From: an uncultured Gammaproteobacteria bacterium
GTDB lineage: Bacteria; Pseudomonadota; Gammaproteobacteria; Pseudomonadales; UBA5518
NCBI GenBank assembly: GCA_903928015.1
Contig: CAIYPF010000183.1
Span: forward strand, 1-43,924
DNA length: 43,924 nucleotides
Direction: 5' to 3'
Positions 40-11,533 of the stretch are shown here, one piece after another. The translations under genes were made by a program, and so were the position numbers. The stretch's first letter is position 1; each line of letters begins with the position of its first letter. The notes under the pieces are model-generated. The model saw only the letters and a program-made list of their open reading frames with translations, was not told where the DNA came from and did not search any database.

Positions 40-1056
40 TCAGAGCAGTTCCTTCGCCAGGAACTCCATGTTGCGCACCGTGAGATCGAAGTCCGAGCTG
101 TGGCCGATCAGGAGTGACGTGACGCGGGTTTTCTTCCAGTCCTGAAGACGCTCGCGCACACGGCCCTCGGGGCCTGCGAGCGAGATCTCGTCGACGAGCC
201 CATCCGGCACCGCCTCCACCGCTTCCATCTGCTTTCCCGAGAGGAACAGGTCCTGGATCTGCTGCGCGGCATCGGCATAGCCCATGCGCCCCAGCAGGTT
301 CTTGTGGAAGTTCATGCCCTTCGCACCCATGCCGCCCAGATAGAGCGCCATCGTCCATTTGCCGGGTAGCAAGGCCTGCTTGAGGTCGTCGTTCAGGCTG
401 AGATTCACCATCGCGGCCACTTCGAAGTCCGGGCCTGCGGGCGCAAGGCTCTCGTCGAAGATGTCCATCTTGTAGGGCGAGCAGAAGATCGGCAGCCAGC
501 CGTCGAAACACTCCGCAGACAGCGCGACGTTCTTCGGTCCTTCGGCGCCCAGCAGCACCGGGATGCGCTTGCGCAGCGGGTGCGTGATGCTTTTCAGCGG
601 TTTGCCAAGGCCCATGCCGTTCTCGCAGGGCAACTGGTACTGCTGGCCGTGGAACTCCACGGGTTCCTCGCGGGCGATCACCTTGCGGAAGATCTCGATC
701 CACTCGCGGGTGCGCTCCAGCGGCTTGCCGAAGGGTTGCCCGTACCAGCCTTCCACCACCTGCGGACCGGACACGCCCACGCCAAGCATGAGGCGTCCGT
801 TCGAGAGGTGGTCCAGCGTGAGCGCCGTCATCGCGGCACAGGTGGGCGTACGCGCCGAGATCTGCATCACGCCGGTGGCGAGGCGGATCTTGGTGGTGTG
901 GGCTGCGATGGCCGCGAGCGGCGTGAAGCAGTCAGAGCCGTAGGCTTCTGCCGTCCAGACCGAATCGAAACCGATGCTTTCGGCCACCTTCGCCAGCTCG
1001 ATGAAGCGTGGCGTGGGTCCTTTCTGCCAATAGCCGAGCTGGAGACCGAGTTTCAT
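40..1056 (-). CDS. LLM class (luciferase-like) F420/flavin-dependent oxidoreductase
   Basis: This 338-residue protein belongs to the bacterial luciferase-like monooxygenase superfamily, a TIM barrel using F420 or FMN. The N-terminus MKLGLQLGYW, the segment AEAYGSDCFTPLAAIAAHT, the TPTCAAMTALTLDHLSNGR region and GVSGPQVVEGWYGQPFGKPL match the F420-dependent LLM oxidoreductases that are abundant in actinobacteria. The substrate cannot be deduced. I chose the start at 1056 because family members begin MKLG; an ATG at 1065 is also possible, and neither has a strong ribosome binding site. A TATACT -10 box lies upstream at 1087-1092. No F420 biosynthesis gene is visible, so FMN use is as likely as F420. 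It stands alone on this strand beside a divergent SnoaL-like gene. Confidence 0.85.
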   Translation of the reverse strand: MKLGLQLGYWQKGPTPRFIELAKVAESIGFDSVWTAEAYGSDCFTPLAAIAAHTTKIRLATGVMQISARTPTCAAMTALTLDHLSNGRLMLGVGVSGPQVVEGWYGQPFGKPLERTREWIEIFRKVIAREEPVEFHGQQYQLPCENGMGLGKPLKSITHPLRKRIPVLLGAEGPKNVALSAECFDGWLPIFCSPYKMDIFDESLAPAGPDFEVAAMVNLSLNDDLKQALLPGKWTMALYLGGMGAKGMNFHKNLLGRMGYADAAQQIQDLFLSGKQMEAVEAVPDGLVDEISLAGPEGRVRERLQDWKKTRVTSLLIGHSSDFDLTVRNMEFLAKELL

Positions 1057-1086
1057 GGTGTGCATCCGGATGGGTGATTCGGGCGG

Positions 1087-1202: not shown

Positions 1203-1652
1203 ATGGACCAGCTCATGGCCAACAAGGCTCTCGTTTCCCGGTTCTGGCAGGAGGTCTACGAGGGCCGGGATTACGACTGCATCGGCAATTTCTTCGCCGC
1301 CGACGGCGAGTACGTGGACGTAGCGATGCCGGACTCGGTGGCGCGCGGACCGGCTGCCGTGGCCAAGCGGCTACGCATCGGTCACGAGCCGGTGGAGCGC
1401 TTCACGCACGTGGTGCATCGCATGATCGCGGAAGGCACGACGGTGATGACGGAGCACACCGAGACCTGGCACTTCCACACCGGCGAGGTTGTAGCGCTGC
1501 CCTTCGTGTCGGTGATGGACGTTGCCGACGGCAAGATCCGCCTCTGGCACGACTACTCGAACCTCGACACCCTGCTGAGGGGGGCTCCCGCCTGGTGGAT
1601 GGAGCACATCATGCAGTTCACGGTGGAGGACTTTGGCTCCCCTGCTCCCTGA
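1203..1652 (+). CDS. SnoaL-like / nuclear transport factor 2 family protein
   Basis: A 149-residue small protein of the NTF2-like alpha+beta cone fold. The N-terminal helix carries ALVSRFWQEVYEGRDYDCIGNFFAADGEYVD, and the later strands include VHRMIAEGTTVMTEHTETW and KIRLWHDYSNLDTLL, the pattern of SnoaL and limonene-epoxide-hydrolase-like proteins. These act as small-molecule isomerases, cyclases, hydrolases or binding proteins, and the exact reaction is unknown. The gene is monocistronic. Its last 35 bases overlap the 3' end of the convergent cytochrome c gene. The ATG at 1203 follows GGAGGAAA closely. Confidence 0.8.
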   Translation: MDQLMANKALVSRFWQEVYEGRDYDCIGNFFAADGEYVDVAMPDSVARGPAAVAKRLRIGHEPVERFTHVVHRMIAEGTTVMTEHTETWHFHTGEVVALPFVSVMDVADGKIRLWHDYSNLDTLLRGAPAWWMEHIMQFTVEDFGSPAP

Positions 1653-2091
1653 ACGTCATCAGGTAGGCGATCAGGTCTGCCCGGTCCTGCGGATCGGGCA
1701 CACCAAGGCTCATCATCACGGTGCCAGGGATGAAGCCGCGCGGATCGGCGAGCCAGGCGTCGAGGTATTCGGGGTTCCAGACAAGGCCGGAATCCTTCAG
1801 CGCCTGCGAGTAGTAGGCAAAACCCTCCTGCGTGCCGGCCCGGCGCCCGAAGACGTTCCAGAGCGAAGGACCGTTCTGGTGCCCTGCGCCCTTGTCCGGG
1901 TAATGACAGGTGCGGCAGCGACCGAAGACGGTGCGTCCGTGCACCCGATCGGCAGCAGCAAGCCGTTCGGCGAAGGGTTTTGGAGCACTGGCCACTGCAT
2001 CTTCCGCATACGCGGAACCGGCGAGCGGGAGCAGCAGCGCGAACAGGCTTGCGCGGACCACCGTAACGGGATTGGGCCGGATCGCGTTCAT
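1618..2091 (-). CDS. Periplasmic class I c-type cytochrome, partner of the KstD-like flavoprotein
   Basis: A 157-residue monohaem cytochrome. A signal peptide runs from residue 1 to about 29 and ends AYA. The haem site CRTCH is at residues 59-63, and the axial Met is probably M125 or M126 in GTVMMSLG. Segments such as NGPSLWNVFGR and DLIAYLMTF are typical of class I (c2/c550-like) cytochromes. The start codon overlaps the stop of the upstream flavoprotein gene as ATGA, which argues for translational coupling and a shared function. The likely role is to accept electrons from that flavoprotein in the periplasm. Its 3' end overlaps the opposing SnoaL-like gene by 35 bases. Confidence 0.88.
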   Translation of the reverse strand: MNAIRPNPVTVVRASLFALLLPLAGSAYAEDAVASAPKPFAERLAAADRVHGRTVFGRCRTCHYPDKGAGHQNGPSLWNVFGRRAGTQEGFAYYSQALKDSGLVWNPEYLDAWLADPRGFIPGTVMMSLGVPDPQDRADLIAYLMTFREQGSQSPPP

Positions 2092-3620
2092 ACAGCCACC
2101 TCTTCCTTCGCCGCGTGGATGCCGGCCTGACGGCCGAAGAAACTGCAATCGCCAATGGATACGCCGCTCGCAATGTACGGCGCGCTGGGCATGCCCGCGC
2201 TGGTGCGGCCGGCGGCATAGAGACCGGGAATCCGCTCTCCCCCGGCATCGAGCACTTCCGCACGCACCGTGGTTTCGAGACCGCCGAAGGTGTGCGCGGG
2301 GCAGAACGCCGAACGCACCGAGAGGTCGTAGAGCCGGAAAGGCGGTTTGGCGAGCGGCGTCACCCACTTCGGGTGCTTGTGCCAGAGCGGATCCACCGAG
2401 CGCTCCGCATGCTGGTTGTAGAAAGCCACCGACTGCTGCAGTGCGCCCTCGGCAAAGCCGCCCGCCTGTTCGAGTGCCGCAATCGACGCAGCCTCCGCAA
2501 GCAGCGGCATGCGGAAGTCACCATCGTCGTAGCTCGAGTCCGCATCCGTCACCAGGTACGCCACGCCGTGCTGGTTGTAGGCCGTCTCGTGGCCCGCATA
2601 GGCGTAGTAGGAATCCTCCGGCAGGAAGCGCTGTGCAGCGCGGTTGACCACGATGCCGTGGATGGTGCGCTCCGGCGGGTAGAGCGGCAGGATTGCGAAG
2701 CCCTGGTGCATGCGGATGGCCGCAGCGCCCACGCCCATGCCCATGCGGATGCCGATACCCATATCGCCTGCGTTCGCCCAGGGTACGGAGCAGTCGTAGA
2801 GTTCCGGCGCGTAGCGCTTCAGCATCTCGCGGTTCTGGATGAATCCGCCGCAGGCCAGCACCACGCCGCGGCGCGCACGCACGGCAATCGTCCGCTCACC
2901 CTCCTGCGCCAACAGGCCCACGATGCGGCCGTCGTCCTCGCGCACCAGACGCTCGGCGGAAACACCCCGCAGCGTCTTCACGCCTGCGCTTTCTGCCGCC
3001 GGCAGCAGCGCCTCCATCAGCGTACGTCCACCCGTGTGGCCAGCAGTGGTGGGCACGTGGCCACGCGGTGCGGGGCGCGCGATGTCCCGCCACGGCGCTG
3101 CCAGCTCACAGCCCGAGAAATACGGCGAGGAGCCGTCGAAGGGCAGTTCCTTGGACTCGCTGAATTTCTGCACGTACTTCACGCCGTGCGCCACCAGCCA
3201 GTCGAAGTGCTCGAGGCTGCGCTCGCAGTAGAGCTCGATCTTCTCCTTCGCCGGATGCAGGCCGCCGGCAGCGAGCATGAAGTCCCGCATGGCCTCGATG
3301 CTGTCTTCGAAGCCGAGCGCCTTCTGCAGCGGCGTACCCCCGCCCAGATAGCAGACGCCACCCGACATGGCGGATGAGCCACCGGTCTTCGGCAGGCGCT
3401 CGAGCATCAGGACCTCGGCACCGGCCGCGCGGGCCTCGATGGCAGCGGAGGTGCCGGCAGCACCGGAGCCTGCCACCACCACATCTGCGGTGTAATCCCA
3501 CTGCCGCACCTCACGCCGCGCAGCAGGCGCGCGCGGGTCGCAGCCTGCGGCAGCAGCCAGCACGCCAGCCGTACCCAGGCCCGACAGGAAACGTCGCCTG
3601 CTCTTGTCACTCACGTTCAT
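2088..3620 (-). CDS. Tat-exported FAD-dependent oxidoreductase, 3-ketosteroid delta-1-dehydrogenase / fumarate-reductase flavoprotein-like
   Basis: A 510-residue flavoprotein of the FAD_binding_2 (FrdA/KstD) family. Residues 8-15 read RRRFLSGL, a twin-arginine export motif, followed by a hydrophobic stretch and AAGC with Cys27, which could be a lipobox. The dinucleotide-binding motif GSGAAG is at 51-56. Near the C-terminus Tyr482 and Gly486 (YIASG) have the same spacing as the catalytic Tyr and Gly of KstD, so a ring dehydrogenase is more likely than a fumarate reductase. I used the ATG at 3620 because GGGGGG precedes it closely and it places the Tat motif at the N-terminus; an in-frame ATG at 3641 falls in the terminator. 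The cytochrome c gene overlaps its stop. Known KstDs are mostly cytoplasmic or membrane-associated, so Tat export with a dedicated cytochrome is unusual. The substrate is unproven. Confidence 0.8.
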   Translation of the reverse strand: MNVSDKSRRRFLSGLGTAGVLAAAAGCDPRAPAARREVRQWDYTADVVVAGSGAAGTSAAIEARAAGAEVLMLERLPKTGGSSAMSGGVCYLGGGTPLQKALGFEDSIEAMRDFMLAAGGLHPAKEKIELYCERSLEHFDWLVAHGVKYVQKFSESKELPFDGSSPYFSGCELAAPWRDIARPAPRGHVPTTAGHTGGRTLMEALLPAAESAGVKTLRGVSAERLVREDDGRIVGLLAQEGERTIAVRARRGVVLACGGFIQNREMLKRYAPELYDCSVPWANAGDMGIGIRMGMGVGAAAIRMHQGFAILPLYPPERTIHGIVVNRAAQRFLPEDSYYAYAGHETAYNQHGVAYLVTDADSSYDDGDFRMPLLAEAASIAALEQAGGFAEGALQQSVAFYNQHAERSVDPLWHKHPKWVTPLAKPPFRLYDLSVRSAFCPAHTFGGLETTVRAEVLDAGGERIPGLYAAGRTSAGMPSAPYIASGVSIGDCSFFGRQAGIHAAKEEVAV

Positions 3621-3640
3621 GTGTCCCCCCGTATTGCCCA

Positions 3641-3667
3641 AAAAGAAAACCCCCGGTGACGGGGGCT
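3641..3667 (-). terminator. Rho-independent terminator after the TonB receptor gene
   Basis: On the minus strand a GC stem of at least six pairs (arms 3650-3655 and 3660-3665, four-base loop) is followed by TTTTCTTTTT. This is the classic intrinsic terminator shape, placed 30 bases after the receptor stop. The next gene, the flavoprotein, starts only about 20 bases further on, so partial read-through could make this an attenuator. Confidence 0.8.
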
Positions 3668-3695
3668 TCCTTGCTTCCGCGTGGCGATGCCGCGC

Positions 3696-6107
3696 TCAGA
3701 ACCGGTAGGTGCCCTGCAGCGCGTAGTAACGCGGACGGCTGCTGAACACGTAATAGGCGTTGCCGGTGCCGCCCGTGGCGGTCCTCGCCAGCACACCCGT
3801 GCCACCGTAGTCGATGGTCTCCTCGTCCGTGAGGTTGTTGCCGATCAGGGCAATCTCCCACTTGTCGTCGGATTGCGCGAGCGCGATGCGTGCGTTCACC
3901 TTGGTGTAGGCGTCCTGCACGGTGCGCGGGTCGAGCTGCGGCGACCAGAGGTACTCGTCGGAGTACTGCAGATCCAGTTGCGCGCGCAACTCCAGCGCGT
4001 CGCCGATGGGGTAGTAGAAATCACCCGTGATCACGCCCTTCCATTTCGGCGTGTATTCCTTGCGCTCGCCCGAGGCATCGCACTGGTCGAGCACGGCGTT
4101 GGTGACGCTCGTGGGATCGAGGACCTGCTGCCCGAACCAGCACTGCGCGACATCGAAGTCCTTGAACTCGAAGTCGAGGTAACCGAGTGAACCGGAGAGT
4201 GTGAAGTTCTCGCTCAGCATCCAGCGGCCGTCTACCTCGGCGCCTTTGACATCGGCGCCCGCGGCATTGGCGACGTTGAAGCCCACGCCGCCGTCGAAGA
4301 CGGAGGTCTGGAGGTCGTCGTACTTGGTGTAGAACACCGCTGCGTTGACTTCAGCCGAGTCACCGATGGCCGCCTTCACGCCAATCTCGTAACTGGTGGC
4401 CTGCTCCTTGTCGAACTCCCAGGCGCCCACAGCGGCTGCGGGAGTGCCCGCGACAATGACCGCAGGATCGGGGTTGGCATTGGAGCGGTTGTCGAAGCCG
4501 CCGGACTTGAAGCCTTCGACATAAGAGGCATAGAGCATCACGTCGTCGGTGGCGTCCCACTGCAGGGTGACCAGCGGCGTGAAGGCGTTCTCGCTCAGCG
4601 AGCCCTTGAGGTTGTTGGGTTCGATGCGCAGCACGCCGAAGAGCGAGTTCAGCAGCGGGTTCGTGGCGCCCTGGTCGACGCCTGCGCTGTTGAAGTGCGA
4701 CTGCACGCGCGAGGCGTCTTTGTCTTCCTGCGTGTAGCGGCCGCCGAGAACCAGGCGCCAGTCCTCGCTCATGTTCCAGGTCGCCTGGACGAATGCGGCC
4801 CAGGTCTCGGTGTCCTGCTCGAAGGTGCGGCGCGAACTCACTCCCGAAAAGCCGCTGCTGAGGATGCGCAGCAGCGAGTTGGTCGGGATGTTGATCTTGT
4901 CGCCGTAGTCGAGCGAGTTCTTCTGGTAGTAGAGCCCCGCGATGTAATCCACCGTCTCGCCGCCGGGCGAGGTGAGGCGGATCTCCTGGCTGAACTGGTC
5001 GTAGTCCTCGCCTGCTGTGGAGTCATCGATGATCGGCGCCGAGGTGTAGTCGCAGTCGCAGGACTCGCGGCTCTTGTAGTCGACATAACCCGTCACGAAG
5101 GTGAGGGTGCTGTCGCCGAGCGAGTAGTCGGCATTCAGAAGGAAATTGTCGACGTCGTTGTTGCTGGCATCGAAAGCGCCGGCGCTGCGCTTCTGGTTCT
5201 GGGTGGCGTCGTCGAGGACGTAGCCCTCGATCAGCGGCCCGGTACGCAGGCCGGCACGGACCAGGTTGTTCAGGTTGTTGACGAAGCTCGTGAGACCGGT
5301 GAGGTAGCTGCGCCCGCCTGCCGGATTGTCCTCGCGGATGATGTCGTTGATCAGCTCGATGTTCCGGCCTTCGGTATCGAACTGCGCGTTCTCGTACTTG
5401 AACTGCACGCTGAGGTCGTCGTTGGGCGTCCACAGGCCGCCGAGGCGCACAACCTGCTCCTCTTCCTGCTTTTCGTCGCGATTGGCGACGACGTTATCGA
5501 CCCAACCGTCCATCTCGCGGTAGAGCACCGAGAGGCGCGCGGAGAAGGTGTCGGAGAGCGGTCCGCTCACGACGAATCGGTAGTCGCGCTCGTTGGCGTC
5601 TGGCTCATAGAGCACCTGCGCGGAACCTTCGAGTTCATCGGAGGGCTTGGCGGTCACCAGACTCACCGCGCCGGCGATGCTGTTCTTGCCGAAGAGGATC
5701 GGCTGCGGGCCGCGAAGAACTTCGACACGTTCCATGTCGAAGAGCGGCAGCCGCGTGAGCTGCGCCTTCCCGAAGTAGATGCCGTCGTTGTACATGCCGA
5801 CGGACTGCTCGAAGGACTGGTTGATGCCGGAGCTGATGCCACGCACCGTGATGGTGGAGGAAATGCCGGTCTGGTTCATCGAGAAGTTGGGCACGTAGGC
5901 CGAGAGTTTCTCGAGGTTGGTGATGCCCACCTGCTCCATCTTCACGCCCGTGACGGCGTTCACGGAGATGGGAACGTCCTGCAGGCTCTGTTCGCGCTTC
6001 TGCGCGGTGACGATGATCTCCTCGAGCTGGAACTGGGCGAATGCCGGCGTGGTGGCAATCATCATCACGGCGGCGCACAGCGCGGAGCGGCGGAAGGGAG
6101 CAGACAT
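3696..6107 (-). CDS. TonB-dependent outer-membrane receptor
   Basis: An 803-residue outer-membrane active transporter. A signal peptide (MSAPFRRSALC to PAFAQ) is followed directly by the TonB-box-like EEIIVTAQKREQSLQDVPIS and the plug domain (GKNSIAGAVSLVTAKPS). A long beta-barrel ends YYALQGTYRF, with the terminal Phe expected for Bam recognition. There is no N-terminal signalling (STN) domain. I chose the ATG at 6107 because CCGGAGG precedes it and the signal peptide then starts cleanly. The VTAQKR-type receptors of aquatic proteobacteria import diverse organic substrates. The flavoprotein and cytochrome genes downstream suggest a steroid-like or similar hydrophobic ligand, which is inference. 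Confidence 0.93.
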   Translation of the reverse strand: MSAPFRRSALCAAVMMIATTPAFAQFQLEEIIVTAQKREQSLQDVPISVNAVTGVKMEQVGITNLEKLSAYVPNFSMNQTGISSTITVRGISSGINQSFEQSVGMYNDGIYFGKAQLTRLPLFDMERVEVLRGPQPILFGKNSIAGAVSLVTAKPSDELEGSAQVLYEPDANERDYRFVVSGPLSDTFSARLSVLYREMDGWVDNVVANRDEKQEEEQVVRLGGLWTPNDDLSVQFKYENAQFDTEGRNIELINDIIREDNPAGGRSYLTGLTSFVNNLNNLVRAGLRTGPLIEGYVLDDATQNQKRSAGAFDASNNDVDNFLLNADYSLGDSTLTFVTGYVDYKSRESCDCDYTSAPIIDDSTAGEDYDQFSQEIRLTSPGGETVDYIAGLYYQKNSLDYGDKINIPTNSLLRILSSGFSGVSSRRTFEQDTETWAAFVQATWNMSEDWRLVLGGRYTQEDKDASRVQSHFNSAGVDQGATNPLLNSLFGVLRIEPNNLKGSLSENAFTPLVTLQWDATDDVMLYASYVEGFKSGGFDNRSNANPDPAVIVAGTPAAAVGAWEFDKEQATSYEIGVKAAIGDSAEVNAAVFYTKYDDLQTSVFDGGVGFNVANAAGADVKGAEVDGRWMLSENFTLSGSLGYLDFEFKDFDVAQCWFGQQVLDPTSVTNAVLDQCDASGERKEYTPKWKGVITGDFYYPIGDALELRAQLDLQYSDEYLWSPQLDPRTVQDAYTKVNARIALAQSDDKWEIALIGNNLTDEETIDYGGTGVLARTATGGTGNAYYVFSSRPRYYALQGTYRF

Positions 6108-6226: not shown

Positions 6227-7291
6227 TCAGTCCGAGAGGGGATAATCCGTGTATCCCTGCGGCCCTGCGCTGTAGAGCGTCTTCACATCGAAGCCGGCGA
6301 GAGGCAAGCCCTCACGCAAGCGTCGCACAAGATCGGGGTTGCCGATGAACGCCCGTCCGAAGGACACCGCCTCGGCCACGCCGGTGGTGACCGGTTCGGC
6401 GCCGCTCTGCGCGTTGTTGTTGTCGTTCACCACGAGCGCGCCACCGAAATGCCGATGACCGAGCGCAACCACGTCGACGCCTCCTGCAGGAAAGCGGATC
6501 ACGTGCAGGAAGGCGAGGCGCATCGGGCGCACCGCATCGAGCAGCGCGGCATAGGTGCCCGCAGGATCCGCATCGTGGAGGTCATTGAAAGGATTGCCGG
6601 GGCAGATACGCATGCCCACACGGTCGAAGCCAGCCTCTTCACCCATTGCAGCGAGCAGCTCCAGCGGAAAGCGGAGGCGGTTCTCGAGGCTGCCGCCATA
6701 GGCATCGTCGCGGTGGTTGGTGCCGGTGGAAAGAAACTGGGCCGGCAGGTAGCCACTGGTGCAATGCAGTTCCACGCCATCGAAGCCGGCCTGAAGCGCG
6801 CAGCGCGTGGCATGGCGGTATTCGGCAACAACGCCCGGGATCTCTTCGCTGCGGAGCGCGCGCGGAAGATCGAAGTCGACCATGCCCGCGGCATCGGAAT
6901 AGATCTGCCCTGCGGCGCGGATGGCGGAAGGCGCCACGGTCTCGGTGCCAGGCTCCTTGTTGTGGTGGCTGCCGATGCGGCCGCAATGCATGATCTGCGC
7001 GACGATGCGCCCGCCCTCCGCGTGCACGGCATCCGTCACCGTACGCCAACCTGCCACCTGCTCTGCGGTGTAGAGCCCGGGCGTGCGGCAATAGCCCTTG
7101 CCGTTCGCGCTGGGCTGCACGCCTTCCGTGACGATGAGCCCGGCACTCGCACGCTGGCGGTAGTACTCGACGTTCATCCCGGTGGGGGCATCGCCGGCGC
7201 CGGCGCGGCTGCGCGTCATCGGGGCCATGACAATGCGGTTGGACAGCGCGAGCGCGCCGAGACGGACGGGTTCGAACAGGCTGGCGCTCAT
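6227..7291 (-). CDS. Old yellow enzyme family alkene reductase with altered substrate-anchoring residue
   Basis: A 354-residue FMN-dependent ene-reductase-like TIM barrel of the NemA/OYE type. Visible family marks are LSNRIVMAPMTRSRA near the N-terminus, QIMHCGRIGSH around 99-109, the AYGGSLENRLRFPLELL segment, and GRAFIGNPDLVRRL near the C-terminus. The usual His-x-x-Asn/His pair that holds the substrate carbonyl is His176-Cys-Thr-Ser179 here; the following Gly-Tyr181 is kept. Ser in place of Asn/His should weaken or change carbonyl binding. A ribosome binding site AAGGAG precedes the ATG. It follows the SnoaL-like gene by 39 bases and is probably the last gene of the SDR/SnoaL operon. Confidence 0.9.
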   Translation of the reverse strand: MSASLFEPVRLGALALSNRIVMAPMTRSRAGAGDAPTGMNVEYYRQRASAGLIVTEGVQPSANGKGYCRTPGLYTAEQVAGWRTVTDAVHAEGGRIVAQIMHCGRIGSHHNKEPGTETVAPSAIRAAGQIYSDAAGMVDFDLPRALRSEEIPGVVAEYRHATRCALQAGFDGVELHCTSGYLPAQFLSTGTNHRDDAYGGSLENRLRFPLELLAAMGEEAGFDRVGMRICPGNPFNDLHDADPAGTYAALLDAVRPMRLAFLHVIRFPAGGVDVVALGHRHFGGALVVNDNNNAQSGAEPVTTGVAEAVSFGRAFIGNPDLVRRLREGLPLAGFDVKTLYSAGPQGYTDYPLSD

Positions 7292-7330: not shown

Positions 7331-7960
7331 TCAGCGCACGCGGATACGCGGATCGGGAGTGCCTGCGCGCATGCGTTTGAGAAACTCGCCCACCGGTGCG
7401 GGCTCGGCTACCTCGGGCTCGTCGGAGCCGGGCGGGTTGGCCCAGAACGTCTGCCATGAGGGAAACAGCGCGTGGAAGGCGCCGTCATAGGGTTCGCGGC
7501 CGGGCCAGCGTATTTTCTTGTCGCCGATGGGCGGCTTGTTGAGATCCGTCGCGTACCAGTAGCAGGGCAGGCGCCGGCGGAAAAACCACCGGCCGTCGAT
7601 GCGCTGGTAGTTGTCCCAGTAGAGCATCTGCATGATCACCCACTCGGGGCCGGTCTCGTGCTCGTTCTTGCTGTAGACGACGCCGTGGGCGTTGTCGGCA
7701 TCGTCGAACTCGATGATGTGGTTGCCGATGTGGTGTGAGGTGCCGGTGAACTGCAGGCGCAAGGTGTCGTCGAGCCAGTGCTTGAGATGTGCGCGGCCGG
7801 TCTTCTCGCGGCTCACGCGGATATCTGGCGCGAAGAGATTCACGTGGGCATCGAGGTCACGCATGTCGAGGCTGAGCGAATAGCGCGCCGCAAGTTGGCG
7901 GATCGCCTCGGTGGACTCGAGGCGGTCGATGCGGGCGAGCAGATCCGTGTCGTTGCTCAT
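7331..7960 (-). CDS. SnoaL-like (NTF2 superfamily) protein
   Basis: A 209-residue member of the SnoaL_4 type of NTF2-like proteins. It starts with a helix (LLARIDRLESTEAIRQLAARY) followed by DMRDLDAHVNLFAPDIRV, the usual opening of this family, which includes hydroxylating-dioxygenase small-subunit-like proteins and steroid-isomerase-like folds. The C-terminal 60 residues, rich in Pro and charged residues, extend beyond the core domain. The ATG is preceded by GAGGAG. It lies 10 bases after the stop of the SDR gene at 7971 and clearly shares its transcript. A role as isomerase, hydratase or dehydratase is plausible but unproven. Confidence 0.8.
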   Translation of the reverse strand: MSNDTDLLARIDRLESTEAIRQLAARYSLSLDMRDLDAHVNLFAPDIRVSREKTGRAHLKHWLDDTLRLQFTGTSHHIGNHIIEFDDADNAHGVVYSKNEHETGPEWVIMQMLYWDNYQRIDGRWFFRRRLPCYWYATDLNKPPIGDKKIRWPGREPYDGAFHALFPSWQTFWANPPGSDEPEVAEPAPVGEFLKRMRAGTPDPRIRVR

Positions 7961-9725: not shown

Positions 9726-10856
9726 CTACAGCTTCAGGTTCCAGAAAAGCGGCGCGCTGATGCCGTAGTGCGCGAAGGGGCCGATGAAACAGTACTCGAA
9801 GAGTCCCCAGCCCACATCGTTGCCAGCCTCGAAACGGCAAGGAGCATCCACCAGTCCGAAGAAGCGGCCGCGGTCGCGCTGGTGGTCCAGCGTGAGGCCT
9901 TCCACCACGAGCGGGCCCTTGTACATCCCGTGCTTCCAGTCGGCGTCCAGGCCGTAGCCGGTGCCGATCATCACGTACATGGGCAGCATGGGCGTGCAGC
10001 GCACTTCGAGCGGGCCGCCGGGCGCCTCGGGGAAGCGGATGGTGGACGAGACAACAAACTCGTGAGCATCGTCGAACACGTGTTCGTGCTGCGGCGTGCC
10101 CAGCCATTCAGGTTCGCGCTCCGGGTCGGCCCAGACGCGCACCGCCTCTTCGAGTTCGCGCTTGCCGCCGTCGAGCTCGTTGCAGATGTACAGGATGGAG
10201 TAATCGTCGAACTGCATGGGGCAGTAATTCCACATGCCACGCATGCTGTGCGTGCCCTGATGGATGCCCGCAGGCTCGTGCTCACCGACCGGGCGGATGC
10301 CCCAGGAGCGGTCGCGGCTGCCTTTCCAGCGATCGGGCGTCACGGCGATGCGTTCACCGTCGATTTCCAGCCAGCCCGTCCAGCAACCGGTCTGCGCGAA
10401 GCGCACGGAATCGAAAAAGACCCGTCCCTTGCGGCGCACGTACTGGCGCGGCTCGAGGAAGGCCGGGATGGCGCCCTCCCAGGTGACGTCCATGGCAATG
10501 CCCCACTCGTTGGGCTCCAGCACGAAACGCACGCGCTTCAGGCCCTCGAGAACCTCGACGCGAATCGGGCCGACGGCGGAGTCGGCGCGGTCGCCGAGCT
10601 CGCGCGAGGCGCGCACCACGCGGTGGGTATCGCCCTTGCGCAGGGCCACGAAGGCGTCCTGCACTGCAAGGGTCGGGTATTGGCCGAGACCCATCACCAT
10701 GAACAACTCGCCGCTCGAGTTGTGCATGTTGAAGTAATAGCGGTCGTAGAAATTGCGGTCCGAGCTGCCCACGTTGCGGATCGTGTCCGCGATCTGGTGC
10801 AGGGGATAATCGTCCATCGGCGAGAGCGACTGCTCCGCCTGCCAGCGCGTCACCAT
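9726..10856 (-). CDS. Uncharacterised beta-rich protein, encoded next to a Nudix hydrolase
   Basis: A 376-residue protein with no signal peptide, no membrane segment and no cofactor motif that I can name. It is rich in aromatic and beta-type sequence, with marks such as DRNFYDRYYFNMHNSSGE near the N-terminus, WKGSRDRSWGIRPVGEHE in the middle and GYGLDADWKHGMYKGPLVVEG near the end. The Arg-Asp-Arg-Ser-Trp-Gly segment recalls conserved uncharacterised proteins found beside acyl-CoA and steroid catabolism genes; a lipocalin-like two-barrel (AttH/CrtC-type) fold is a guess. The ATG at 10856 overlaps the end of the Nudix gene by seven bases, so the two are translationally coupled. I do not assign a function. 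Confidence 0.7.
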   Translation of the reverse strand: MVTRWQAEQSLSPMDDYPLHQIADTIRNVGSSDRNFYDRYYFNMHNSSGELFMVMGLGQYPTLAVQDAFVALRKGDTHRVVRASRELGDRADSAVGPIRVEVLEGLKRVRFVLEPNEWGIAMDVTWEGAIPAFLEPRQYVRRKGRVFFDSVRFAQTGCWTGWLEIDGERIAVTPDRWKGSRDRSWGIRPVGEHEPAGIHQGTHSMRGMWNYCPMQFDDYSILYICNELDGGKRELEEAVRVWADPEREPEWLGTPQHEHVFDDAHEFVVSSTIRFPEAPGGPLEVRCTPMLPMYVMIGTGYGLDADWKHGMYKGPLVVEGLTLDHQRDRGRFFGLVDAPCRFEAGNDVGWGLFEYCFIGPFAHYGISAPLFWNLKL

Positions 10857-11533
10857 GGTATGACTCCGTTGTTGAGGTAATGCCAGTTTCCGCGTTCCAG
10901 CACCATGCGGTGGCGACACCCGGGCACATCGGGGTCGGCGCTTTCGTAACCCGCGTCGCCCTCGTAGATCGAAACCGTGGGCTCGCCCTCCCGGATCACG
11001 AAATGGGGCTCGAAGACCGGGACCTCGCGGTGGGCCGCCCGCTCGAGCGCCTCGGCGACGGTGGTGCAGGAGGCAAGTTCGGTGAGAGTGACAAAGGTGG
11101 GCGGGAGCATTTCGATCTCCTCGCGGCGCTGACGCAGCAGCGCGTCCTCGGGACGCACCCAGAGATGGTCGTCGATCTCGCCCCCGTCCACGGTCACTGC
11201 ATCTTCCACCGGCGCACGGCACACGAAGAACCACGTGGCGTAGCGCTTGGGCATCACGGGCGGAGTGGTCCAGTGGGAGTAGAAGATCAATTCATCTGGC
11301 GAGTCGATGCGGATCTGGGCCTCTTCCAGTGTCTCCCGCGCCGCAGCGAGCCTGGCGGCCGAGAGCGGGTCTGCAGTTGCGGCGATTTCCTCGGCGTCGA
11401 CCCGGCCACCAGGGAAGACCCACTGCCCGGCGGCAAAGCCCAGCGCCGAATTGCGGCGCAGCAACAACACGTGAAGGCCTTCCGGGGAATCGCGCAGCAG
11501 CACCACGGTGGCGGCGGGGCGTACGTCAGACAT
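10850..11533 (-). CDS. Nudix hydrolase, NUDT19/CoA-diphosphatase-like
   Basis: A 227-residue Nudix protein. The Nudix box is split by an insertion: PGGRVDAEE at 41-49, then, after about 16 residues, RETLEEAQI at 66-74 with the metal-binding Glu residues. This long-insert layout, and the opening AATVVLLRDSPEGLHVLLLRRN, match the NUDT19/RP2-like group, several of which cleave coenzyme A or acyl-CoA diphosphates. Such an activity would fit a region rich in CoA-ester catabolism, but the substrate is inferred. GGGAG precedes the ATG. The downstream uncharacterised gene overlaps its 3' end. Confidence 0.87.
   Translation of the reverse strand: MSDVRPAATVVLLRDSPEGLHVLLLRRNSALGFAAGQWVFPGGRVDAEEIAATADPLSAARLAAARETLEEAQIRIDSPDELIFYSHWTTPPVMPKRYATWFFVCRAPVEDAVTVDGGEIDDHLWVRPEDALLRQRREEIEMLPPTFVTLTELASCTTVAEALERAAHREVPVFEPHFVIREGEPTVSIYEGDAGYESADPDVPGCRHRMVLERGNWHYLNNGVIPW

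Follow-up and report, generated by a model that had tools for sequence, protein, structure and literature searches.

A Tat-type flavoprotein of the ketosteroid dehydrogenase family and its companion monohaem cytochrome c in Gammaproteobacteria

The flavoprotein and its companion cytochrome

The stretch of DNA analysed here (the window; 43,924 nucleotides, contig CAIYPF010000183.1) comes from an uncultured gammaproteobacterium and encodes, on its minus strand, a flavoprotein related to ketosteroid dehydrogenases (KSTDs), followed directly by a small secreted cytochrome c (Table 1). The stop codon of the former and the start codon of the latter share an ATGA overlap. Both the overlap and the signal-peptide-bearing monohaem nature of the cytochrome had been recognised in the initial annotation of the locus, and both are borne out and recur among related loci.

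To define these relatives, the best 80 loci from a scan of named genomes were divided by best-segment identity to the window protein into 39 loci at 49.2-89.2% (L051-L087, L089 and L094; hereafter the clade, whose count is a lower bound) and 41 loci at 40.2-48.5% (the outgroup, in which L105, L117 and L121 were retained despite odd open frames). The clade comprises Halieaceae, Spongiibacteraceae, Solimonas and relatives, mostly marine bacteria. Co-occurrence of the two genes across genomes, proposed earlier as a check, is extensive: a cytochrome gene lies adjacent, downstream and on the same strand in 38 of the 39 clade loci, with an overlapping start (ATGA, GTGA or TTGA) possible in 32, and in none of the 41 outgroup loci, each with at least 841 bases of downstream DNA. 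An order-wide search of 194 genomes separated close relatives (53-95% identity) from distant ones (at most 45%); its genomes are partly those of the first scan, and the two sets of counts are not additive. The twin-arginine (RR) motif was present in all 12 non-self close loci and the cytochrome in 10, the two others being L023, whose contig ends inside the flavoprotein gene, and L027, with no cytochrome downstream. None of the 20 distant loci (17 fetched matches and three paralogues from the window's own genome) has the RR motif, and none the partner cytochrome; one of them, L042, has an unrelated CxxCH gene downstream. Of 398 genomes drawn evenly from the phylum, only the window's own yielded a full-length member (E 1e-150), a weak result because scoring was confined to the top three candidates of each genome.

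Two alignments underlie the comparisons that follow: A2, with the flavoproteins of the window, 34 of the 39 clade loci (L058, L060, L073, L080 and L081 omitted) and 17 of the 41 outgroup loci, and A3, with the cytochromes of the window and of 27 of the 38 clade loci that have one. In a tree of the 34 clade and 17 outgroup loci, a branch supported at 100/100 separates the two groups, in agreement with the identity split, and when the tree is midpoint-rooted the label changes once, so that a single gain is its natural reading. Distances between flavoproteins correlate with those between cytochromes (r 0.83; Mantel test on the 25 pairs present in both A2 and A3, 0 of 2000 permutations as high). 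Pairwise differences among the clade flavoproteins reach 55%, and the recurrence of the overlap and of both export signals under such divergence argues that they are not due to chance. Moreover, the genes around the pair vary between lineages, indicating that it is the pair, and not a large synteny block, that is kept. One record (L051 and L127; CAMAXE010000023.1 and CAMAXE010000001.1) holds an 89% copy of the locus, its genes in the same order; it is filed under 'Klebsiella pneumoniae isolate MH-08apr19-278', a name that looks wrong.

The N-terminus of the flavoprotein (MNVSDKSRRRFLSGLGTAGVLAAAAGCDPR) contains KSRRRFLSG followed by an uncharged hydrophobic stretch ending in AAGC (mean hydropathy 1.61). 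The RRRFLSG motif of twin-arginine translocation (Tat) signals noted earlier is therefore present, with the arginines at residues 8-9. Tat signals were called from the RR motif and the hydropathy of the stretch behind it, and both features were found in 39/39 clade loci, the signal being kept in all close homologues. Conversely, regex and hydropathy scans, with flagged cases judged by eye, revealed a convincing Tat signal in 0/41 outgroup loci: the regex flagged L107, which lacks a hydrophobic stretch behind the RR, and L118, where the RR lies upstream of the likely start, and the hydropathy scan flagged L090, again upstream of the likely start. TatC is encoded in the window's own genome. Cys27 had been put forward as a possible lipobox residue; it does occupy that position, but a cysteine is found there only in the window genus (window, L021, L022/L051 and L023), the other aligned clade rows having a gap or another residue. 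Lipoprotein anchoring as a clade-wide trait was rejected on this ground, and in the window genus the flavoprotein is probably anchored in this way.

The cytochrome possesses a single CxxCH motif behind a signal-peptide-like N-terminus. Of the proteins in the PDB, mitochondrial-type cytochromes c (E 5.7e-25) and cytochrome c2 (2.6e-23) match it best. Cys59, Cys62, His63 and Met126 are invariant in all 28 aligned cytochromes; Met126 is likely the axial haem ligand, and the invariant pattern is that of a His/Met class I cytochrome.

Family, fold and active site of the flavoprotein

In Pfam, the flavoprotein matches FAD_binding_2 (E 1.7e-48), with no match to Amino_oxidase at E 0.01. Of the NCBIfam models, it exceeds the cut-off of PRK07121.1-3, an unnamed subfamily binding flavin adenine dinucleotide (FAD; 511.7 vs 481 bits), and remains below those of the Delta1-KSTD equivalogs (NF009478, 165.2 vs 789 bits; NF005882, 132.5 vs 788) and of the flavocytochrome c model TIGR01813 (176.1 vs 285.45 bits). 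Among PDB sequences, the Rhodococcus jostii RHA1 Delta4-(5alpha)-KSTD (4at0) scores highest, with 369.5 bits, ahead of urocanate reductase with 135.6. An AlphaFold2 model (52 rows; mean predicted local distance difference test score 93.3) matches 4at0 with Z 55 and a root-mean-square deviation of 1.8 Å over 470 aligned residues (45% identity). Lower in the ranking are urocanate reductase (Z 44.0), the best flavocytochrome c3 (42.6), cyclohexanone dehydrogenase (42.5) and Delta1-KSTD (41.7 at best, 39.9-41.7 for 4c3x, 8joj and 7p18); the last belongs to the same superfamily, with its NCBIfam models far below cut-off. Judged by the model, the nearest solved enzyme is a Delta4-(5alpha)-KSTD, and neither a Delta1-KstD nor a flavocytochrome c fumarate reductase. 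The KstD-like identity assigned initially thus holds at the level of the KSTD family, but not as to type.

In the loop near the C-terminus, Tyr482 and Gly486 had been singled out for their KstD-like spacing, and this spacing is genuine and clade-specific: Tyr482 is found in 34/35 clade rows of A2 against 0/17 outgroup rows, and Gly486 in 35/35. The clade loop reads Y-x-x-S-G (34/35), that of the outgroup Y-x-S-G, with the tyrosine at column 483 (17/17). Tyr338 (34/35 clade rows) and Ser485 (35/35) are kept as Delta4-type residues; they match Tyr319 and Ser468 of 4at0, which we take to be its catalytic residues, with Tyr466 of its Y-x-S-G presumably binding the carbonyl. The clade counterpart of this Tyr466 is shifted, lying one residue further from the serine, and the resulting Tyr-x3-Gly spacing is that of Delta1-KSTD, whose two other catalytic tyrosines are Tyr119 and Tyr318, and of cyclohexanone dehydrogenase. 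The catalytic loop, as predicted from the alignment, is a mosaic of Delta1-like spacing and Delta4-type Ser and Tyr. Residue 443 is a histidine in 33/35 clade rows and in 0/17 outgroup rows, 4at0 and 15/17 outgroup rows having phenylalanine there. Further clade markers are Pro481 (35/35 vs 3/17 outgroup rows), Tyr167 (34/35) and Trp281 (97%). In sum, the window protein has in common with 4at0 the fold, the PEDxY tyrosine and the serine in the C-terminal loop, and differs from it in its Tat signal, paired cytochrome c, shifted loop Tyr and His443 in place of Phe.

A fumarate-reductase-type active site, which had been named as a point to check, was not found, the type being assigned here by alignment and fold ranking rather than by model geometry. 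The residue aligned with position 339 in fumarate and urocanate reductases is an arginine, which we take to be their proton donor; the window has Tyr339, and His, Tyr or Glu occupies this position in 35/35 clade rows, in which the alignment contains no NRLGG-type Arg motif. Such a role is described for Arg401/402 of Fcc3 and Arg411 of UrdA (PMC7921117). The fumarate-reductase reading was rejected on the sub-cut-off TIGR01813 score, the PDB and fold rankings and the missing arginine.

Neighbouring genes and further pairs

The pair is preceded on the minus strand by genes transcribed in the order SnoaL_4-domain protein, old-yellow-enzyme (OYE) family oxidoreductase, TonB-dependent receptor (Table 1). 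The initial annotation had made the receptor part of the system. It does lie between OYE and flavoprotein in the window and in L023 (genome G140), but in L021 (G113) and L022/L051 (G008), from two other genomes of the genus, the OYE gene is the immediate upstream neighbour of the flavoprotein gene and the receptor is absent from this place. Elsewhere in the clade, 9/39 loci have a distant TonB homologue (26-36% identity) 4.6-6.8 kb off and not adjacent. The receptor was rejected as a functional partner for these reasons and is better seen as an optional neighbour. The 75-base gap between its gene and that of the flavoprotein holds a GC-rich hairpin, then a T-rich run partly able to pair back, which together look like an intrinsic terminator; the hairpin is not among the calls of a consensus terminator scan, and its energy is within the shuffle range (z -1.16; 26/200 shuffles fold as well). 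Because of this hairpin-bearing gap, the receptor probably does not share a transcription unit with the flavoprotein.

Table 1. Positions of the pair, its key residues and neighbouring features in the window
Feature	Position	Strand	Remarks
Luciferase-like (LLM, F420 Rv3520c subfamily) oxidoreductase	40..1065	minus	kept in L021, L022/L051
SnoaL_2-like protein	1203..1652	plus	convergent with cytochrome gene; kept in L021, L022/L051
Secreted class I monohaem cytochrome c	1618..2091	minus	157 aa; C59-x2-C62-H63, Met126
Tat-type FAD_binding_2 flavoprotein, Delta4-(5alpha)-KSTD-like dehydrogenase (predicted)	2088..3620	minus	510 aa, ATG at 3620
Flavoprotein key residues	RR 8-9, Cys27, Tyr338, His443, Tyr482, Ser485, Gly486		
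Terminator-like hairpin and T-rich run	3641..3672	minus	between TonB receptor gene and flavoprotein gene
TonB-dependent receptor	3696..6107	minus	neighbour, not conserved part
OYE family flavin oxidoreductase	6227..7291	minus	
SnoaL_4-domain protein	7331..7960	minus	adjoins OYE also in L021, L022/L051
NUDIX hydrolase	10850..11533	minus	homologues in 20/39 clade loci, 41-46% identical to window copy

No third gene shared by all 39 clade loci was found. The most recurrent neighbours are MaoC (23), a lipid-transfer-type thiolase (22), a ChsH2-like zinc-ribbon/OB protein (22) and NUDIX (20); being mostly from Halieaceae, they look like shared chromosome context, and conserved neighbours were rejected as a guide to the substrate for this reason and for want of a universal third gene. 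The thiolase (L089:11945-13132, minus; NF004715, 678 bits) and the ChsH2-like protein (L076:13180-13629, minus) are each encoded downstream on the opposite strand in 22/39 loci, a combination that we find reminiscent of steroid side-chain cleavage. In 19 loci the NUDIX gene comes shortly before that of the flavoprotein; in the window genus it is found further upstream, at 4.6 kb in L051 and some 7 kb in the window. In one Spongiibacteraceae locus, a Delta1-KstD-like flavoprotein without a Tat motif (L055:8239-9951, plus; 564 bits to NF009478, cut-off 789) is encoded directly upstream of the Tat flavoprotein.

The window's own genome encodes three more Tat-like FAD_binding_2 proteins of the KSTD/cyclohexanone-dehydrogenase type. 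Two of them (L144:528-2279 and L145:3069-4802, both minus) are ATGA-overlapped with small secreted CxxCH genes (139-531 and 2686-3072, both minus) whose products belong to another family than the window cytochrome; the L144 open reading frame scanned had no Pfam family match. The third (L146:850-2439, minus) has no CxxCH gene within the approximately 0.8 kb examined downstream. Among relatives, L149 (G047) has such a CxxCH gene downstream and L148 (G077) has none, and none of the other genomes among the 194 drawn gave a match at E 1e-100. Since the L144 and L145 pairs use differently built CxxCH partners, the wiring of ketone dehydrogenases to cytochromes may have more than one origin in the superfamily. 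The L145 pair adjoins genes for a cupin, an FAA hydrolase and a glutathione S-transferase-family protein (941-2062, 251-937 and 2028-2666; minus), a neighbourhood that we take as suggestive of a gentisate-type ring-cleavage cluster.

Proposed function and its alternatives

On the comparative evidence, which supports this reading well, we consider it likely that the two proteins form a two-component periplasmic dehydrogenase, in which the flavoprotein passes its electrons to its own cytochrome c. The flavoprotein would fold with FAD in the cytoplasm and then be exported through the Tat system. It would take a proton and a hydride off adjacent carbons beside a ring carbonyl, yielding an alpha,beta-unsaturated ketone: Tyr482 and the Gly486 backbone would bind the carbonyl, while the proton would fall to Ser485 and Tyr338 and the hydride to FAD N5. 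Reduced FAD would then deliver two electrons, singly, to the co-encoded cytochrome, and the latter would pass them to the CtaD-type (aa3) or cbb3-type cytochrome c oxidase, both of which are encoded in the window's own genome. His/Met class I cytochromes are usually of high potential, and electron flow from flavin to cytochrome is therefore favoured. The sequence analysis itself establishes the two export signals, the haem site with its invariant Met, the coupled start, the joint conservation of the pair in the clade, the model's fold and the presence of TatC and both oxidases; we infer the direction of flow, direct contact of the two proteins, the chemistry and the substrate. As for the periplasmic ring dehydrogenase, cytochrome and receptor proposed at the outset, Tat export, conserved pairing and a site other than that of fumarate reductases have held up, and the receptor has dropped out.

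Operons joining a Tat flavoprotein to a cytochrome are already known. The best reading of the present pair, by analogy, is a working mode like that of NicA2/Pnao-CycN, in which a Tat flavoenzyme has an adjacent Sec-exported cytochrome c proposed to deliver electrons in the periplasm to the respiratory chain. Those enzymes are, however, of another superfamily (amine oxidoreductases, C-N oxidation), whereas here the fold is that of FAD_binding_2 proteins, including KSTDs and fumarate reductases, and C-C desaturation is the predicted reaction. Among amine oxidoreductases, kinetics reported in PMC12224317 make a Tat signal plus an adjacent cytochrome good predictors of cytochrome-using dehydrogenases. 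Cyclohexanone dehydrogenase of Alicycliphilus denitrificans (8am3, 8am6 and 8am8) has a similar fold (Z 41.4-42.5; 20% identity) and carries out alpha,beta-desaturation with a Tyr570/Gly574 carbonyl clamp (PMC10966990); the main text of that paper contains no occurrence of cytochrome, signal or periplasm. No Delta1-KSTD with a Tat signal or a cytochrome partner appears in the portions of the literature examined, the available parts of PMC10653915 and PMC11061730 describe no such flavoprotein/cytochrome pair, and none of the literature matches listed, which cover few subscription papers, describes a ketosteroid dehydrogenase that is exported by Tat and paired with a cytochrome c. What appears to be new is that an exported ketosteroid-dehydrogenase-type enzyme is combined with a class I cytochrome of one haem and that a clade conserves this combination.

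The same layout could also serve a periplasmic reductase, with the cytochrome donating electrons to the flavoprotein and an enone being reduced, as in Mrd/Mcc, Cgr1/Cgr2 and UrdA. The fold superfamily is shared, and so is the operon layout: the Mrd/Mcc operon of Geobacter sulfurreducens AM-1 encodes a flavocytochrome c-like Tat flavoprotein and a Sec-exported cytochrome c, both periplasmic (PMC4427408), and Cgr1/Cgr2, which reduces the steroid glycoside digoxin in Eggerthella lenta, consists of a cytochrome and a Pfam 00890 protein with a predicted Tat signal, proposed to act outside the cell (PMC5953540). The donors described there are multihaem, a tetrahaem cytochrome feeding Mrd and a NapC/NrfH-like one being the proposed donor of the [4Fe-4S]-containing Cgr2 (PMC5953540), whereas the cytochrome considered here is a monohaem class I protein of the His/Met type with mitochondrial-type cytochrome c and cytochrome c2 as its best matches in the PDB. 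Together with a dehydrogenase-type active site lacking the presumed proton-donor arginine throughout the clade, and with the cytochrome c oxidases of the genome, this makes a reductase unlikely. Alternatively, the genes might be merely co-transcribed, the cytochrome being a general periplasmic carrier and the flavoprotein reacting with quinone or O2. Quinones were indeed proposed, from dye assays, as the natural acceptor of one Delta4 enzyme, 5beta-Delta4-KSTD1 (PMC8044976), and most Tat amine oxidoreductases tested that have no adjacent cytochrome are fast O2 users (PMC12224317). Such indifference between the two proteins is nevertheless improbable in view of their adjacency in all but one clade locus despite changing neighbourhoods, the overlapping starts that are possible in 32 loci and their matched divergence; moreover, a search of the window's own genome at E 0.001 gave no second homologue of P0002.

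Several observations weigh against a dedicated dehydrogenase-cytochrome couple. The Tat call rests on motif and hydropathy, not on a trained predictor. His443 sets the clade apart from Delta4-KSTD; in its likeness to the fumarate-reductase motif HT-GG, it speaks to this extent for a reductase. L065, on the same contig as L027 in genome G027, keeps the RR motif without a cytochrome downstream, and that genome (2.2 Mb, 91% complete) contains no homologue of the partner cytochrome at E 0.001, as would be expected if the genes were merely co-transcribed. Of six genomes of the window genus, G000, G008 and G113 carry both genes and G051 carries neither; in G140 the contig breaks off within the flavoprotein gene and no cytochrome was found, and in G164 part of a cytochrome gene lies where a contig ends, with nothing closely matching the flavoprotein. 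Because one label change suffices when the tree is rooted at its midpoint, the 39 loci represent a single event, maintained under divergence, rather than 39. Finally, L087 (Mangrovimicrobium sediminis) is without the loop Tyr, with PLLASG for PYIASG; it retains the Tat motif and the cytochrome on a long branch, and its function is possibly altered or decaying.

If the pair is a periplasmic dehydrogenase, a 3-keto-steroid or a similar cyclic ketone is a plausible best guess for its substrate; that it is a steroid is a guess at roughly even chances. The closest solved enzyme, which acts on 3-ketosteroids by dehydrogenation at C4-C5, the cholesterol-degrading isolates known from the main host families Halieaceae and Spongiibacteraceae (PMC5790920), the Delta1-KstD-like neighbour in L055 and three KshA_C-domain proteins of the window's own genome (above the Pfam cut-off, none named by NCBIfam at E 1e-30) are compatible with steroids and prove nothing. 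A dehydrogenase acting on a smaller cyclic ketone, a terpenoid or another ring compound, which would leave the rest of the proposal intact, falls just short of an even chance: the neighbours in the window (OYE, SnoaL, short-chain dehydrogenase/reductase and LLM) and elsewhere (MaoC, NUDIX, thiolase and P450) are generic and not diagnostic of steroids, the catalytic loop is that of neither known type of KSTD, and cyclohexanone dehydrogenase has the same fold and Tyr-x3-Gly carbonyl clamp (PMC10966990). The most far-reaching version of the proposal is one that we hold tentatively and, taken as a whole, with some doubt: a KSTD branch would have moved to the gammaproteobacterial periplasm with a dedicated high-potential cytochrome c, desaturating a 3-keto-steroid or polycyclic ketone before uptake, with electrons bypassing quinone on their way to terminal oxidases and with the remodelled loop and His443 giving a regiochemistry or substrate range that differs from those of Delta1- and Delta4-KSTD alike.

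The natural electron acceptor of KSTD-type enzymes has seldom been settled, and the co-encoded cytochrome offers a partner that can be purified and tested. In biocatalysis, a soluble desaturase coupled to a cytochrome might be operated at an electrode with no need for dyes as mediators. If the proposed function is true, a Tat signal with an adjacent cytochrome would mark hidden dehydrogenases in a second superfamily of flavoenzymes besides the amine oxidoreductases, and ring-ketone desaturation outside the cytoplasm would shift the presumed start of steroid or terpenoid catabolism in Halieaceae and Spongiibacteraceae.

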